This document shows, piece by piece, positions 1,425 through 41,200 of a DNA stretch of 64,000 nt (positions are counted from its first letter, which is position 1; each line of letters starts with the position of its first letter). Position numbers and translations under genes: made by a program. Under the pieces are notes generated by a model, which worked only from the letters and a program-made list of their open reading frames with translations, was not told where the DNA came from and searched no databases. Source of the DNA: Owenia fusiformis (taxonomy: Eukaryota > Annelida > Polychaeta > Sabellida > Oweniidae); the NCBI GenBank assembly GCA_903813345.2, contig CAIIXF020000001.1:14589915-14653914 (forward strand), written 5' to 3'.

Positions 1425-1530
1425 TGCAAAAATGTCGCAACCTACCATTTGTTACAGACGCGACGCCGAACACCAATCGCTGATCACCAACCGCAGACCA
1501 CTTACCACCGAGCCTGTGATAGTGATGTAA
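1425..1530 (-). repeat. Copy of dispersed GTGACATTTTGCATG family
   Basis: Read on the minus strand this matches a family also seen at about 12245-12370 (minus), 28398-28530, 48120-48220, 57820-58400 and 61520-62400 (plus). Shared parts are a GGTTGGTGTTCGGC-like core, TGTAACAAATGG and a terminal GACATTTTGCATG. The open frame at 1377-1565 falls in it and has no gene-like features. Confidence 0.5.
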
Positions 1531-2073
1531 AAACTCTATTGGTTGTCATTTTTAAACCTACATAAAATGTATCATCACAGTACGTATACAAGGATTGACT
1601 TCTTACTTTAAGGAAATCTACTCGGTTTTCGTTCGGTCAAAGAGCGATCGATATTTTTGTGTACTGACGTCGAAATGCATCGGCGATATTGAGATTTAAA
1701 AATGCTGCAAGATAAACGGACAGAAAGGGGCAAAATATGAAACCTTGGTCTCGGCTTATAGTATCAGGACATAATTTTGATAGCTATCAACCTAAGCTAA
1801 AGTAAATAATTGAAGTCAAAACTCTTTTGTCAGTCATTATTAAGTATTGACTAAAAAATACCAATTACTTTTCTGTGCCAATGAAGAAAATTCAATGATA
1901 CCAGAACAGATTGGTCAGAAGATATTTGGTGCACGAGTGTTACCCAAAACGTTTGGCTCGAGTTTCGGCAAACATTATCCTTTTCGTAGTACAATCCTGT
2001 TTCACTTTCAATGATTTTCAAATGTATATTTTGTGTTTTAATTAATTAAGTTTGAAGGAATAACACTCTTATA
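1531..2073. other. Intergenic, nothing recognised
   Basis: No coding or repeat signal recognised. Confidence 0.4.
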
Positions 2074-2687
2074 CAGGGTGGGCCAAAAAACGCCATTTTT
2101 TCAAAATACTATAACTTTTTTATTTTTTGATATTAAATCATAATTTGCATAACAAATGAAACTTGAAGTTGTTATCTAGCAATGGATCATGAATTATACA
2201 GTACACTTTTACTTGAATAAAATATGTCACCAGCGTCTCACTTAAACATGTGGTGTGCCATGAGAAATAAGCATAATTTGCAAAATGTTCCTGAACTGAT
2301 ACGGCCTGATGATCGCTAAGCTAATAGCCCTGATGCAAACCCCAGTGAGTATAGGGTATGGGAAGGTCTCCAGGAGATTGTATGAAGGCACCTAATCTAA
2401 AGCTGGCAATTAAGACAGGTTGAAAAAACTTAGCTAACATTTCATTGATACTGCAATATCAGCAAGGCGACTTAGACTAAAATATATCATCAATTAGGGT
2501 GACGGACCAATTGAACTCGATCCCCTTTTAGATCAAATATAATCCAAGTTGAAGGACTTGTTACATTATATCATATTATTACTAAGAACCCTTGGCACTA
2601 TATAATTGCAAAATTTGGAGTATGTAGTTTGGAAAATAAAAAAGTTGTAGTGTCTTGAAAAAAAGTGCCGTTTTTTGGCCCACCCTG
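2074..2687. mobile_element. Tc1/mariner-type MITE, 614 bp
   Basis: The ends are inverted repeats, CAGGGTGGGCCAAAAAACG on the left and its near-complement ending GGCCCACCCTG on the right, with TA on both sides. A TA target duplication with short CAGGG ends is typical of Tc1/mariner elements. There is no transposase frame inside, so it is non-autonomous. A one-ended copy lies at about 41814. Confidence 0.75.
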
Positions 2688-3215
2688 TATATAGTTTTAT
2701 TTTTATGTAGATAACAAAAGTATGAATTTTGTTCGTTCAGTGCACTTTTAGAAGGCTAAAAACACAGAAGTGATAAACGGTTGAACGGCGATAATAATTC
2801 ACAAATTGTTTCAAGAATGTAAGGAAAGTAATATCAACTAATGTTTTAAGTAGTGAATAACTCAAGGATTAATTTTTAACCAGTGTTTTTACAATCAAAA
2901 GTATAAAGAGTGTGCCATTGTTGCTATAATAAATTAAGCCACACGTTTTTACGTTAAGCAGAATATCATAATGATAACAAAACAGAAAAATGAAATAATA
3001 GATACATCAATTTGATATTTTTGCTTCTTTGCTTTTGGCGGATTTTTCATAAGCTGTCCATCTATTAATAGAACCGCCTCAACGGGCATTCTATGCATTC
3101 ATGTTGACTTAGCGTTTGTTTTGGACGGTTGTCATAAGTTGCTCAAATACATTCAATCACAAATCCAAGCTTTAATCGCAGTGTCTATTGATTTTCTCAT
3201 ACAAGTTCATAGGTG

Positions 3216-6354: not shown

Positions 6355-9300
6355 CTACAATACACAAAAAACATACTTGTGCAAGACCAACTCAGTGTGT
6401 TTAGATATGTTTGAGCGGATGCTCATGATCACCCCGGAATAGCCTGACAACGGTAAAGTCAGATACCGTTGTCACAAATGGTGGACATAACCGTCGCTTC
6501 AATTAGATTTTCATGAACTGTATGTTTAATGGAGCACCTAGACTAAATTCCTTTGGAACAACAATCAATCAAAGTGTCTTTATACTCATTGTACAGTTAA
6601 TAATGTTCTACAATCTAACCGATCAAAATGAGATACGGGACAACGGACACTATAATTACCATATGCCGTTGTCTTTCTAAATTACTCAATTTCAGATTCC
6701 GTTGTCATTGACGATATCGAAGACGCTATATTGTGCCGATTCACGACCCAATTTGATCGAAAATGGGATTTCATATGATACACTATCACAAGAGCTTAAT
6801 GCATGCACAGAATTAGCGACAATGAAATAGCATGAAATGAGGACCAAGTGATTAAGCAGTTGAAGTGACGGTTATGTCCGCCATTTGTGAGAACTGTATC
6901 TGACTTTACCGTAGTCAGGCTATTCCGGTGTGATGATAGATCATTTGATTTCTAAATACATCTTTTAATAATATTCATCAATTATCATTTCTGTTGATCC
7001 AGGATATTAAACAGATTTTAACTTTATAGAGTTGTTTCCGAATGTTGCCCTTTATCGTTTCTCTGATGTAAACATACCATTTTCGCAACGCTGGCCGTGA
7101 AAACCAGGTTTGCAAGAACACAAGAAGCTGTCCTCTCCATTCTGGCACATGCCACCGTTCAAACAAGCTCCAGCAGCACAGTGGTCAATGACTACAAGAG
7201 AGCTCAATGGCGTCAAAATTGAAAGTATTGTGAAAATATCCCCATCAGTATGTTAGATGCATTATTGGACGAAACCTTGCTCATAGAGAGAAAAGTCTTG
7301 AACGACAGTATACCACCTATATAACCCTAGTAATTTTTCACTATCAAATTACTTTAATTGATGTATGGATGAGTAGTCAAAGAAGCCAGTGTACAGCAGG
7401 ATTTTCTCAAAATGACCTGGGCGTTTTTTGAAATTGATAAAATTGATAATTTCTCTAAAAATAAAAAAGTACTTTCCACATTACGCTCATGTGCAATATG
7501 ATGAAAGGGTGTCATTTAGAGAAAATCTGGTATATGAATTACATTGATGCATTCTATAAGTAGGCTAGATGAATAATAGAAAGAGAATCTACCTGTGCTA
7601 CAAATCTCTCCACCATAGCCGGGTCTACAAATGCACTGGAAGCTATCAAAACCACTTTTACAGATACCGCCATTTTGACATGGATTTGCCTTGCAGAAAT
7701 CTACATCTGAAAAAATCATTTTAAATGGCAGTCTTAGATAGAGTGCAACTTATCAAATGTATTTTTGTCACATAATATTCCTTTTCACTTGCATATTATC
7801 TTAAACTATTTCACTCATTTATTCAAAAGAAATGCAAATTTTCAAAAATGCACGTGTTTATTTTTCATCAGATGTGGATATTCACATTTATGGTTCTGAA
7901 AACTTATATTAGGATTCGTTAGCCCTAAATAACAGCAAAATTCGGGATCATATCGTGAATTATCCTACACTTAGTGTACTAAATGTATAATAACATTAAA
8001 AAATAAATTTGATATTTATGGGCAAAATGAATATCCGGAGGATATCGTGACGATATACTCCGGGCGGAGGATATCGTGACGATATACTCCGGAAAACCCA
8101 ATATGCGGAGGATATTGTGACGATATACTCCGCTTGTTGATTTCCCGCCAAATTGACTCTATTTGGCATGAAATTCATTTTGCAATGATATTATACATTT
8201 AGTACACTCCTTGTAAGTGTAGGATAATAAGAACATCCTATGATTTTTTCAGAATATCATTTTAATCTACTCGGTGATATTGATATATGCACTCGTTCGC
8301 TTCGCTCTCTCGTGCAGATATCAATATCACCTCGTAGATAAAAATGATATTCCTCAAAATCATAGGATATCCTATAATTATCCTACACTTAGTGTACTAA
8401 ATGTATAATAACATTAAAAAATAAAGTTGATATTTATGGGCAAAATGAATATCCGGAGGATATCGTCACGATCAGACACGATATACTCCGGGCGGAGGAT
8501 ATCGTGACGATATACTCCGGAAAACCCAATATGCGGAGGATATTGTGACGATATACTCCGCTTGTTGATTTCCCGCCAAATTGACTCTATTTGGCATGAA
8601 ATTCATTTTGCAATGATATTATACATTTAGTACACTCCTTGTAAGTGTAGGATAATAAGAACATCCTATGATTTTTTTCAGAATATCATTTTAATCTACT
8701 CGGTGATATTGATATATGCACTCGTTCGCTTCGCTCTCTCGTGCAGATATCAATATCACCTCGTAGATAAAAATGATATTCCTCAAAATCATAGGATATC
8801 CTATAAATATTTTATTTAAGATGATATCAATGATTTCTTCAATTGCCATATCTTCCTTCGAACATTTTTGATTCGAGTCAATAAGGTGGGCTTACTGTAG
8901 TCACAATGAACCCCTTGGAATCCTGTAGGACATTCACATATAAAACCCTCGGGGTAGTTGCCGACCAGACACTTCCCGTCGTGCAGGCAAGGGAAGCTCA
9001 TACACGGGTTGTATCCTAAAAGGCATCGTATTGATGACATACAATACAAGTATTTAATTACACTTGTCTATTAGTGAAAAATACAATTACAAAAATGTTA
9101 ATATAGTTTATTTCTGACAGATGTAACACAAATACAACTGATCTTGCGATGAAACAAATCACTTTACCAGACGAACAATAAATGAAAAAGCGTGGCCCAG
9201 TGGCATGCCATATAATATGGATATCAGTGTTGGCTTCCTGGTCATCTGAACCCCAAGACAACCCAGCCCTGTAAAACTCAACCCCAAGTCAAGTCAACCC

Positions 9301-24270: not shown

Positions 24271-24952
24271 TCTATTGTGGATAGGTTATTTCTCCTTCAT
24301 GTCTCTTTCTCTTTGCAATCATTTAGATTATGCATTGACACTACATTTTTAAGCCTTAAAAATCTTTTGGATCTGGATAACAAGTCAAGAGTTTGAAGTC
24401 CCTGATGTTAAATCTAATTCTATGAGTACAATATCCAAACCTTATTTAGTCAACATGAGGTCATTGATGTTCTTTGGATGATGTGAGATATGTGGGGACT
24501 AAGTCATCCCCCTCTTATATTCTCTATATAAGTTTCAATATAGAAAATATAAGTGGGAGGGGTTGAATTACCCAATTACCCCCATGGTGAGATATAGCAG
24601 GGAAAGTCTAAGACATTTGTTTTAGAGAGAAGGATGTTATGAATGCCATGGTTGTTTATCTTGAAAACTATGCTGGACAACAATCCGGGATATTGGCCAT
24701 GTGAAAATGAATAGCTTTACCATAAACAAGCCATAATTTAACATAAACATATACAAAAGCCCTCCTTGCTCTGAATTTGGATCCTTCTTTAGTGAGAAAG
24801 ACTAAACAAGATAAACAGAGCCCAAAAAATTGACTATGATTTATCATAAGTATTCAAGAACAAAATAAAAGAATAAAATGGGAGAGAAATCATGTACATT
24901 TAATAATTTATTAAGTAATTATCCTCATACTCAATATGACTGAAAAACAATA

Positions 24953-26246
24953 CACGGTGTATAACCCAAACGCTCCTACATGCACGACGGAGCGTTTCAT
25001 TACTGAAATTTAACAAAGAAACGCTCCGGAGTAGGAAAACTGTCTGGCGGGAATGATGAGCCGTCTGACAATTTCCCCAATAATGGGAATAAGATGTATG
25101 AGTTACATATTTCAAGTATACCATTCGATGGGTGTGATATTCATGTTGTACGTGGCTGGCTGTTGACGTTTGAAGCAATTAGGAAGAGCTGTACGAAGCA
25201 GTATAGTTATCAAAATTCAAAAACGTATTTGTCATTCTACCGGTCAAAACCCCTTTTGTCGATACATGTGATTAGTTGAGCCAAGATTAGAGCACCAACG
25301 TATATTTTAGTCAAATTCCAATGCTTCAACGCACCATACATTATCGTAATAGTGATTTGATGACCGAAAATCCAGTCTTAAAAATGATGACATTCTCATA
25401 TTCAAGAAACGCTCCGATCTGGTTAACACAGTGAATTGGAAACGCTCCGGTAGTCTAGATCAGTTAAGGAAATATATAGCTTGCCTTTCCTTTTCAGGAA
25501 GAGAAAGAAAAGATCTATTATACCCCTTGGCATCAATAGAAGAAAGATTAATTCACATATAACTTTTCGTTTTTTTCTATAGTTTTATGATTTAGCACAT
25601 ATGTAGGCATGACATCATCTAATGTATAGGCTTTAATCAGCTAGTTGCACGTTTAGCACCACCAGGTTCAGATGTTTCAATTTGCCTAACAAGTACAACA
25701 CGTTTTTGAGAGATAGATTCGATTCGGAACTCTTCTCTAATAATCTGAAAATGATATCAAAACAAAATGGTAAGAGCGTTTCTAAAATTGTGTTCTAAAT
25801 CGACGGAGCGTTTCGAGGAAAACAAGCGATTTCTCGAGAACAAGTAATGGATTTGGACTGGGATTTTAGGAAATGAGAATATACAAGTTTGTGATCTACT
25901 ACTTAAACAGAAAGATTAACGTTTTCATAAAAATACTAGTTTAATTCGTAATTTGTGGTCAAATCGTCATCTTCAGATTCGTTCGATCTACACTACGGAG
26001 CTTTGATCAAGCAAATAACAGTTTACCACCAGAAGTTGAATAAATAATATCTTAGCTCACGGTATTGTTCATCGAATGGTACATAATATTTCACCATGAC
26101 ATATGATATGTAAGAGAAACGAGAGAAATAATACTTACGGTCATAGTAGAATCTTCATTAGCCGCCATTTTATTTCGCTCCGGAGCGTTTCCGCGTAAAT
26201 GTAACGCTCCGTCGTGCATGTAGGAGCGTTTGGGTTATACACCGTG
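24953..26246. mobile_element. Transib-like element, 1294 bp, with internal gene-like ORF
   Basis: Perfect 44-bp terminal inverted repeats (24953-24996, 26203-26246) start with CACGGTG. CAATA flanks both sides (24948-24952, 26247-26251). A CACRGTG-type heptamer with 5-bp duplications is the signature of Transib elements, the family related to RAG1 recombination signals. About eight internal GGAGCGTTTC / AAACGCTCC motifs in both orientations may be transposase-binding repeats. There is no transposase frame, so it is non-autonomous. A small spliced ORF lies inside on the minus strand. Confidence 0.75.
25637..26168 (-). CDS. Small two-exon ORF (45 residues) inside the Transib-like element
   Basis: Exon 1 is 26168-26139 and exon 2 is 25744-25637; donor GTAAGT, acceptor ATTTTCAG, phase 0. 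The start context AAAATGGCGG is a good animal initiation site. The product starts MAANEDSTMT and contains EEFRIESISQKRVVLVRQ; it is charged, soluble and lacks a signal peptide or membrane segment. I do not recognise it. It could be part of a captured host gene or element cargo. The splice signals and frame agreement argue against chance, but the short length keeps confidence moderate. Confidence 0.45.
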
Positions 26247-26251
26247 CAATA

Positions 26252-38200: not shown

Positions 38201-41200
38201 CCATGTGTTGTGGTGTATTATACATGTATATCTATTTCTAATGGTCCATGTGTTGTGGTGTATTATACATGTATTTTAATGGTCCATGTGGTGTATTATA
38301 CATGTATTTTAATGGTCCATGTGTTGTTACACAAGTATTTCTAATGGTCCATGTGTTGTGGTGTATTATACATGTAATCCCAATGGTCCATGTGTTGTGG
38401 TGCAATATTCACAATTTCTAATGGTAAATTTGTTGTGGTGTTGCAGAAGGAGGTGAGCAGTGGTGAGATGGAGAAAGCTCTAGAGGCTGAAAGACCTGCA
38501 TCCTATAATGATACAGGTGAAGAGGAAGGAGATGAGAACACAGAACGAGGCAACTGGACCAGACAACTTGACTTTGTGCTGTCATGTGTTGGATATGCTG
38601 TCGGCCTTGGCAATCTCTGGAGGTTTCCATATATCTGTATGCTTAACGGAGGAGGTGGGTTGTACATACATGTATATAGTACTGTTGGTTATGCAAATAA
38701 CACAATTCTTTATGTAGATCATTTTGGAATTGTAGAAAAGTTCCAAAACTGTCATGAGATCGATGAGGGAAACCTATGTTAAAAATCTTTAGGTGGCTCT
38801 CAGAAAAGGATACCACAAGCTATTAGATGCCAATTTAATGTATAAATTGTTCATGTAAAATTATTGCTTTATCAAATTCCCTATTATGAGTTCTGCATTT
38901 AAAACTAATGGTATATGTTTCCCTACACTTAAGTTGACTGAAGCTGTATTACTACTGAGAACCTTAGTGTTGTACTGAGCAAGTATGCCAATTAGCCTTG
39001 GGAAATTTGGAAAAGCTGAGCTTGAATGCTGGGATAATTAACCTTAAAAAACAACTTATCCTTAACTGTCAATGTCACTAAAAAACAAAAAGACATTTTT
39101 TATTCATACATGTACAGTACATTCCCTCACTCCTCATGTCACTCTGTCTAATTCATGTGTATTGTTACAGAAGTTATGCATACATGTATTTTTTGTTAAG
39201 ATGCACTTAGTGGCATGGTACTATTGTAGTACATTAAATGATAGCACTGCAAACAAGGTAGCTATCTTTAATCAATCTCTCAGCAGTAAAACATCAATCA
39301 TACCACACCTAACAATTTGTGGTTGCCATTGAACTGAGATTCCAATTTGCCATTGGAAAGAGGAAAGAGGGATGGGGAAACTGATATTTTTACAGATAAA
39401 ACTGGGAACTTATTGAACCTGTTAGCAGTTGACTTTTGCCAAAAGTGCAGTGTAATAAAACATTTTTTAGCATCATAAGAAATAACACCACATGCATGTG
39501 AAATAAATATATACACATGTTATGTAAGGAAACTTACTCAAAATATTGGTCAGTTAACATTTGATGTTTGACGTTACAAAATTAATATATTATCCCAAAG
39601 AATGAGTTTGTATAAGAATTGTAATCTAGAGAATCCATCTAAAATTCATTTTTGCATATGTGTATGCCTGTCTGTCTGTCTATTCATCTATTATCAGTTG
39701 CTAGATTTGGTTGCTCAATTCAAGTGGTCAATTTTGAAAATGTCCTTTATAGTACAGGCCCTGTGTTATATATATTTGTAAGCTTTATTAACTCTACAAT
39801 TGGACTCTTATTATATTGGTAGGATTTATGTTCCATTGTTGTGTCACATTATGGAAGGTGTAATCTTTTTAGAGGACAATATAGTTTCCTGTCCAAAGCG
39901 TATGTAACCAATACATTATAAATTACAAATCATGTTCATAAATGATAGATTTTGAGTGTGTATGTACATGTAATACTAAACTGAATTGTATGTTCTCCTC
40001 ATGTAAGCTAAAATTTCTTCCAACAACCTTATTAAGATCCATGGCCTAATACGTCATACTTTCCCCCAATTGTTAGTATGAACAAGTATTTAATGTGGCA
40101 ATCTTGGCTCCCATTGTAGAGATGTTTTTTATTAATAGCATGATTGGCATTCCTACAGTCAGTGTAATATCACGCTTCATTGAGATTCCACCGTGAATAG
40201 ATAAAAAACTTTTGTGAATTCAGGCTTGAAAATCAATTTAGTCCTCTCTCTTTAAATTGAACTTTTCAGTATATTAATGAAAGATAATGACGTGTATATG
40301 GGACCATCTTGGGATCAAAAGTTACATGCACATATAAAACACAATTTCCTTTCCTGGGCACTAAAAATCCCTGACATCATCTGCATTTATTCATTGCTAT
40401 GGCCTTAAATGATGCTGGGGCTTAGTTCTTTATAATTGAAATCCGGGAGAAGGCTTCTTTCATTGAGACACATATTGATGTTCCTGAAGATAATTGGGTT
40501 GTTTGCTTGTATTGTATTGTGTCAGAACATGGGGTGTTTCCAGTGTACTTTTGACATAGTTAATTCCCCTCTAATTTTGACGTACATTTATTTCTGTAAA
40601 TTGATCTTTTTACCTCTGAATTGTATAGCATGCAATTGCTTTGTTTTAAAATTCTAATATGCATCTGCAAAGGAAACAAAAAGACATACAGTTCTCATGC
40701 TACATACAATTATCCGACAAAAATGTAAAAGATGGATAAAATCAAGAGTAGAATTTGTTTACTGCGTGTGTGACTTTTTACATAATGTTGAATTAAGCTT
40801 CCATTTATCGATGTATTTGAAAAACAAACATTGGAAGCTCCATTTCCCAAGATAAGTTGAGAACGAAATAATCAAAAAAGTGCATAATATTCCAGTTTAT
40901 TTAATTAAAGCTGAGCATTATGATGACATTCAAACGTCAATTTGCTCAATTTCTATTTGAGGTCCACCTTTGTTTAGATCATCATCCAATTAGCAATTTT
41001 ATAGAGTTTTTGCAGTGTTTCTTAATGAATCCTTTTCAAAACAAGTCAAACACCAAATCTTAGCTGTATTTGGATTTTACAATCTCTCTCATCAAACATA
41101 TTACAAGGTGAGTTTGGTGCATCCCTGTGAGACTCAATGATATAATGTTTTTAAATTTGTCATTGATTGAAAGATAATGTTCTATAGGTCAAATCGTGTT

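Follow-up and report, generated by a model that had tools for sequence, protein, structure and literature searches.

The heptamer CACGGTG forms the end of the moth element Hztransib. More generally, Transib and RAGL transposons carry CAC...GTG tips and make strict 5-bp target duplications (PMC7204232). Transib, ProtoRAG and RAG are reported to favour G+C-rich targets (PMC8289069), and CCANTGG is given as the target motif of Drosophila Transib (PMC3276498). Transib is placed in the CMCT clade, whose members are described as having CA...TG termini, 2-5 bp duplications and a C(2)C and an H(3-4)H motif between the second D and the last E; hAT5 families with 5-bp duplications are described as well (PMC12730594). 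ISL2EU (PHIS) elements, which are ~4.8 kb long with GG tips and AT 2-bp duplications, encode a YqaJ protein as a separate ORF of unknown role beside a DDE/HTH/THAP transposase (PMC4482050).

We analyzed a 64,000-nucleotide stretch of the Owenia fusiformis genome (the window), in which a 1,294-bp element with terminal inverted repeats (TIRs) occupies positions 24953-26246 (Table 1). A sequence-only reading had described CACGGTG at both ends inside 44-bp perfect inverted repeats, a duplicated CAATA and a non-autonomous TIR transposon, and had called the element Transib-like and RAG-related. The structural part of this description was borne out. CACGGTG begins at the first base and its reverse complement ends at the last, the arms extend to 49 nt each (98% complementary, with one mismatch and the first 44 bp perfect), and CAATA stands on both sides. 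No long open frame was found in the element; the longest listed there, 92 aa, overruns the left end. Its non-autonomous nature is also evident from the termini that it shares with a coding relative. The lineage assignment was not supported: the one gene-bearing relative found encodes YqaJ/RecE-exonuclease and C2H2 proteins, neither with detectable similarity to RAG or its known transposon relatives. After analyzing these data, we hold with good confidence that the window element, itself non-autonomous, derives by internal deletion from a family of larger DNA transposons that carry two genes.

Table 1. Features of the window element and their counterparts in the 11-kb gene-bearing element
Feature	Window coordinates	Strand	Remarks
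5-bp target-site duplication, left copy	24948..24952	.	CAATA
Left terminal inverted repeat	24953..25001	+	49 bp; tip CACGGTG; inner inverted pair AAACGCTCC/GGAGCGTTT
Left arm homologous to 11-kb element (L090 62-655)	24953..25545	+	489/590 columns identical; gene A 5' noncoding part
GGAGCGTTT motif outside TIR	25019..25027	-	identical in 11-kb element
GGAGCGTTT motif	25407..25415	-	identical in 11-kb element
GGAGCGTTT motif	25440..25448	-	7/9 in 11-kb element
Relic gene A splice acceptor	25485..25497	+	CTTTCCTTTTCAG followed by GAAGAGAAAG; AG kept in 41/41 near-full-length copies
Relic gene B exon 2 start	25637..25744	-	35 codons + stop; IIREEFRIESISQKRVV... vs MIRDELGIEPISPRKVV... of 11-kb element
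Right arm homologous to 11-kb element (10558-11083 of L090+L091)	25728..26246	+	428/518 columns identical
Relic gene B intron 1	25745..26138	-	GT...AG; 394 bp (401 bp in 11-kb element)
Motif AGAGCGTTT	25773..25781	+	identical in 11-kb element
GGAGCGTTT motif	25805..25813	+	8/9 in 11-kb element
Gene B exon 1	26139..26168	-	ATGGCGGC... = MAANEDSTMT, then GTAAGT donor (11-kb: MAAFEDRTMT)
GGAGCGTTT motif outside TIR	26182..26190	+	identical in 11-kb element
Right terminal inverted repeat	26198..26246	-	49 bp
5-bp target-site duplication, right copy	26247..26251	.	CAATA

The element belongs to a numerous family. The exact 15-bp end CACGGTGTATAACCC occurs 206+219 times (425 in total) in the 498-Mb genome, compared with 0+0 for the reversed control, and when 2 mismatches are tolerated the 24-bp end is found 260+266 times genome-wide; from these counts, the family comprises roughly 210-260 copies. 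Target duplications were read in 51 copies whose two ends could still be recognised, with at most 3 substitutions per 24 bp, after removal of L054, a chance match without an element. The duplication was exactly 5 bp in 49/51 and 4 or 6-9 bp in none; in the two misses, L052 and L064, the duplication halves differ by one letter. Seven more copies or elements examined later all carried a 5-bp duplication, giving 56/58 in total. The short copies favour AT-rich targets that tend to have C on the left border and G on the right. G+C made up 59/245 letters of the duplications (24%) but 38.8% of the immediately adjacent flanks (p=8e-7), a preference that is smaller against the wider flanks (35.4% G+C), and the G+C target bias of Transib was not observed by either comparison. 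C preceded the duplication (position -6) in 23/49 copies (p=5e-6) and G followed it (position +6) in 26/49 (p=4e-7), with at least one of them in 40/49 and both in 9/49.

The recent activity proposed from the perfect ends also gained support. The closest pair, L081 and L082, lies on two contigs with distinct flanks and differs by 0.08%. Measured against their majority sequence, 41 near-full-length copies had diverged by a median of 0.85% (maximum 2.9%), a median skewed low because most of these copies had been chosen as best matches to the window. The 1.3-kb repeat is thus supported as a gene-less family that has moved recently.

A coding partner was sought among pairs of family ends. About 300 of the 425 exact ends were listed, with the last part of the genome incompletely covered, and pairs were matched by eye; the long pairs fetched included one gene-bearing element (L090+L091), and other gene-bearing copies may exist given this coverage. 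The remaining long pairs were rejected as coding partners. L004, L005, L006 and L055 are short elements carrying inserts, L088, L089 and L092 likewise contain inserts, and L087 consists of two short elements in tandem order. L052 holds a nested 835-bp MITE (286-1119), which represents another abundant short family (40 best places scored of 724 candidates). A 12,663-bp pair was a short-element copy with a nested 11.4-kb TIR element, L085+L086 (C3:20307716-20319083). Bounded by the inverted ends TAGGCCATCAGC..., the nested element lacks open frames >131 aa, and a 3-bp overlap suggests a 3-bp duplication. The listings also contain a 1,508-bp end pair on C6 (36333180). Unpaired ends were mostly the short element along most of the fetched stretch, in 11/13 of the first set and 12/15 of a further set (L094, L102 and L104 being the others). 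In the first set, L039 departs from the family after 148 bp, into a tandem repeat, and L035 after 207 bp, beside a GT92-like frame. In L083, a lone right family end (1061-1267) is located 3' of a 524-codon frame (1441-3012) with a glycosyltransferase family 92 domain, where it places promoter-like and splice-donor sequence beside a probable host gene.

L090+L091, on contig C3, spans 11,022 bp, with an ACCAC duplication on both sides and two 49-bp ends that are identical to each other. Its left 594 bp and right 526 bp are collinear with positions 1-593 and 776-1294 of the window element. Over these termini, which span 86% of the element, 917/1108 columns are identical (83%), including 89/98 TIR columns. 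As the two are 17% diverged, L090+L091 is a relative of the window element and not its direct parent. Its two genes converge, gene A being read from the left end towards the interior and gene B from the right. The ~4.7 kb between them contain no open frame >103 codons, and the interior includes repeats common to other loci.

Gene A begins at 656 of L090 and runs rightward, with exons at 656-1910 and from 3484 that join in phase across GT...AG borders. Its product of ~1,000 aa contains a YqaJ/RecE-like exonuclease domain within the chain. The spliced product matches Pfam YqaJ at 25.5 bits (cut-off 22; E 1.7e-5), and the second piece alone, unspliced, matches it below the cut-off (E 0.0052). A 283-aa part matches a PHROG RecE-like exonuclease (E 1.1e-7) and also a PHROG virion structural protein (E 2.7e-7). 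The second piece also matched DUF6438 (E 0.057) and SF0329 (E 0.0092 in Pfam and 0.18 in NCBIfam), in each case below the cut-off or at chance level. The last 128 codons are open in another phase, reflecting either a frameshift or a small unrecognised intron, and this sole gene-bearing copy among the listed ends is probably damaged. No transposase was matched by the gene A pieces in Pfam, NCBIfam or PDB sequences, no catalytic domain was recognised by sequence, and neither PF12940 nor an Hztransib or RAG1 chain was matched at E 10. Single-sequence structure models of two pieces were uninformative (pLDDT 33-34), and a search of viral contigs for gene A relatives confirmed none.

Gene B encodes a C2H2 zinc-finger protein according to Pfam. 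Its exon 1 (MAAFEDRTMT) ends at a GTAAGT donor and, after a 401-bp intron, splices in phase to the C2H2 zinc-finger exon. In Pfam, the sole database scanned with gene B, no Kelch, RAG1 or Transib match was obtained, and a PHD-type match reached just E 1.3. The gene B ATG lies in AAAATGGCGGC (window 26161-26171), which we take to resemble a YY1-type promoter element. The TIRs of ProtoRAG are reportedly controlled by a YY1-like factor (PMC7481187).

Both genes have left traces in the short element. Gene B exon 1 with its donor is present in 39/41 near-full-length copies and the gene B acceptor in 41/41, and the exon 2 relic aligns with the 11-kb element (IIREEFRIESISQKRVVL vs MIRDELGIEPISPRKVVV) with a score of 43, compared with 36 for the best of 2000 shuffles (0/2000 reach it). 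From gene A, the short element retains the 5' noncoding part only. These splice sites and exon relics indicate that genes A and B are both ancestral to the family, rather than the product of a chance insertion in one copy. The shared ends, collinear termini and gene relics together mark the window element as an internal-deletion derivative of the two-gene family, with ends and termini in common with a coding element and the coding interior lacking, as in a MITE. The remnant 35-codon gene B frame is open in 38/41 copies, which is no sign of selection because the copies have diverged so little. A spliced transcript from window positions 25637-26168 could encode a 45-residue gene B remnant without zinc fingers, and this remnant could possibly act as a repressor.

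The sequence-only reading had also proposed that interior motifs in both orientations form a transposase-binding array. With up to one mismatch, GGAGCGTTT has 14 matches in the window, a number reached by 0/100 shuffles, and 10 of them lie in the element in both orientations (8 exact and 2 with one mismatch). Each 49-bp TIR contains two of these motifs, mutually inverted. Outside the TIRs, 51/54 motif columns are identical between the window copy and the 11-kb element, compared with 777/956 background columns (p=0.006, a test based on just these 54 columns). The motif has thus outlasted its surroundings relative to an 83%-identical relative, and the proposal is supported in the form of a probable, still putative, protein-binding array.

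We suggest that gene A is rather likely to be the transposase and cut-and-paste mover of the family. A transposase that the large form encodes, in all likelihood through gene A, would cut the element out at its CAC...GTG tips, and the excised element would be joined to the target by a staggered insertion of 5 bp. Together with the inverted pairs in the TIRs, the other GGAGCGTTT motifs of the array would provide a binding platform for gene A or zinc-finger protein B. The short copies keep the ends and the array and could be mobilised in trans through them. We further guess that the exonuclease domain might trim or resect the transposon ends or the donor gap; an exonuclease domain in a likely transposase, if confirmed, would bear on how such ends or gaps are processed.

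The nearest competing view is that gene A belongs, in highly diverged form, to a known DDE superfamily with a large insertion domain (hAT, including hAT5, or P) and that YqaJ was inserted later. The 5-bp duplications agree in length with those of hAT5, and candidate acidic motifs (SVDGK, SFDGQW and NENFFGEL, read by eye from the translations) flank YqaJ. However, a hAT match in Pfam is lacking, as are transposase matches of any kind in the three databases searched, and the structure models offered no help at their low pLDDT. To our knowledge, CACGGTG is also not a usual hAT end. We regard this view as rather doubtful.

Less probable still is a true Transib/RAG-like transposase, missing from the assembly or missed by us, that recognises CACGGTG and for which genes A and B are passengers; we consider it quite unlikely. 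The likeness to Transib (Hztransib and Drosophila hopper/transib2) is real at the letter level, with CAC...GTG-type tips, strict 5-bp duplications and C and G bordering the target, and it does not thereby identify the enzyme. The bordering letters agree with the outer letters of CCANTGG, whereas the AT-richness of the duplications contrasts with that motif and with the G+C preference reported for Transib, ProtoRAG and RAG. The family also differs from Transib in having two genes and a 49-bp TIR with an inner inverted motif pair, and no Transib/RAG1-type protein was detected in its gene-bearing relative, which is one probably damaged copy. Two convergent genes, RSS-heptamer-like tips and 5-bp duplications recall the RAGL elements (ProtoRAG, TransibSU and protostome RAGL), but the proteins are YqaJ-domain and C2H2 proteins instead of RAG1L and RAG2L, and the duplications are AT-rich rather than GC-biased. 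With the CMCT clade as a whole, the family shares CA...TG termini and a duplication length within 2-5 bp, whereas CxxC and Hx3-4H are absent from all three gene A pieces.

In the genome searches, Transib queries gave no significant match. A Transib-motif query, which retrieves Hztransib in PDB at E 5.7e-61, gave 0 candidates in the genome, and Hztransib segments matched one place at E 9.4, although a genome miss does not prove absence. Approximately 125 of the 425 exact ends lie outside the listings, and other coding copies may exist among them. Nevertheless, the gene B exons and gene A 5' part in the short elements argue that both have long been constituents of the family and are not passengers. 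The sequence-only reading had itself named two observations that would count against a Transib identity, a coding copy with a transposase of another superfamily and duplications other than 5 bp. In part, the first was found, as the coding copy has no RAG1 or Transib match, and the second was not, as the duplications stay at 5 bp. CAC tips and 5-bp duplications tempt one to a Transib/RAG reading when the transposase is missing, as they did here; the family proteins, without detectable RAG1 similarity, suggest that an element cannot be assigned to the RAG lineage from its end motifs alone.

The Pfam RAG1 model (PF12940) found three places in the genome, all at 14.8-14.9 bits and below the cut-off of 25, and these lie in a family of 5.3-kb elements whose copies are nearly identical (L024 3334-8674 on C8 and L026 260-5625 on C1). 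This element has 24-bp inverted ends (CATATCGAGATTTT...) and a frame of ~726-729 codons, whose protein weakly resembles RAG1 (PF12940 E 0.0013-0.0035; best PDB RAG1 match E 4.5e-4) in the neighbourhood of the last catalytic region. It was rejected as the mover because its ends differ, with no CACGGTG and no GGAGCGTTT motif, and it stands as a RAG1-like transposon lead of this genome in its own right. Two further groups were rejected for want of these ends, namely the transposase-like families L040-L046 (open frames of 484-667 aa) and the RAG1-ish fragments L047-L051. Three scattered CACGGTG words occur in L044 and two motif words in L042. L040 (1103-4117) and L042 match DUF1280 (E 8e-17 and 2e-17, respectively), with zf-AD in the upstream frame of L040 only, and a 2,570-bp piece common to L040 and L041 at 99.6% identity suggests recent spread of these related families.

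That the 11-kb element is merely an old short copy invaded by an unrelated gene-bearing element, as the 12,663-bp pair and the inserts in other long pairs might lead one to suppose, is highly improbable, since self-comparison shows no inverted pair at its inner boundaries, the gene A acceptor and the gene B exon 1 and acceptor sit inside the shared arms, and gene B exon 2 crosses the boundary with its start recognisable in the short element.

Returning to gene A as the transposase of a two-gene family, ISL2EU offers a partial parallel as a eukaryotic DNA transposon with a YqaJ protein. It differs from the present family, which has 5-bp duplications, CAC tips and YqaJ inside a ~1,000-aa chain with no DDE or THAP match in Pfam. 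Fish Harbinger elements and YqaJ are reportedly the subject of one paper (PMC9179366). Among the papers listed by our searches on YqaJ and transposons, there was no family like this one, which could still be catalogued. We tentatively raise the possibility, to which we give somewhat less than an even chance, that the family represents an undescribed eukaryotic superfamily, in which a single transposase chain with an internal YqaJ/RecE-like (lambda-exonuclease-class) nuclease is accompanied by a convergent C2H2 partner and the RAG-heptamer-like ends were acquired independently. If so, the 5-bp joining and the RAGL-like two-gene layout would be independent as well, and its short family would have amplified recently. 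On our main account of a two-gene family moved by gene A, too, the RAG-like heptamer would reflect convergence, or a trait common to many CA...TG-ended transposons, and not a RAG1-type enzyme.

Elsewhere in the window, positions 6429-6933 hold a repeat that is also present in the flanks of L087 and in the interior of the 11-kb element, and positions 38390-38782 contain an exon-like frame that matches the sodium:neurotransmitter symporter family (PF00209, E 1.3e-16).
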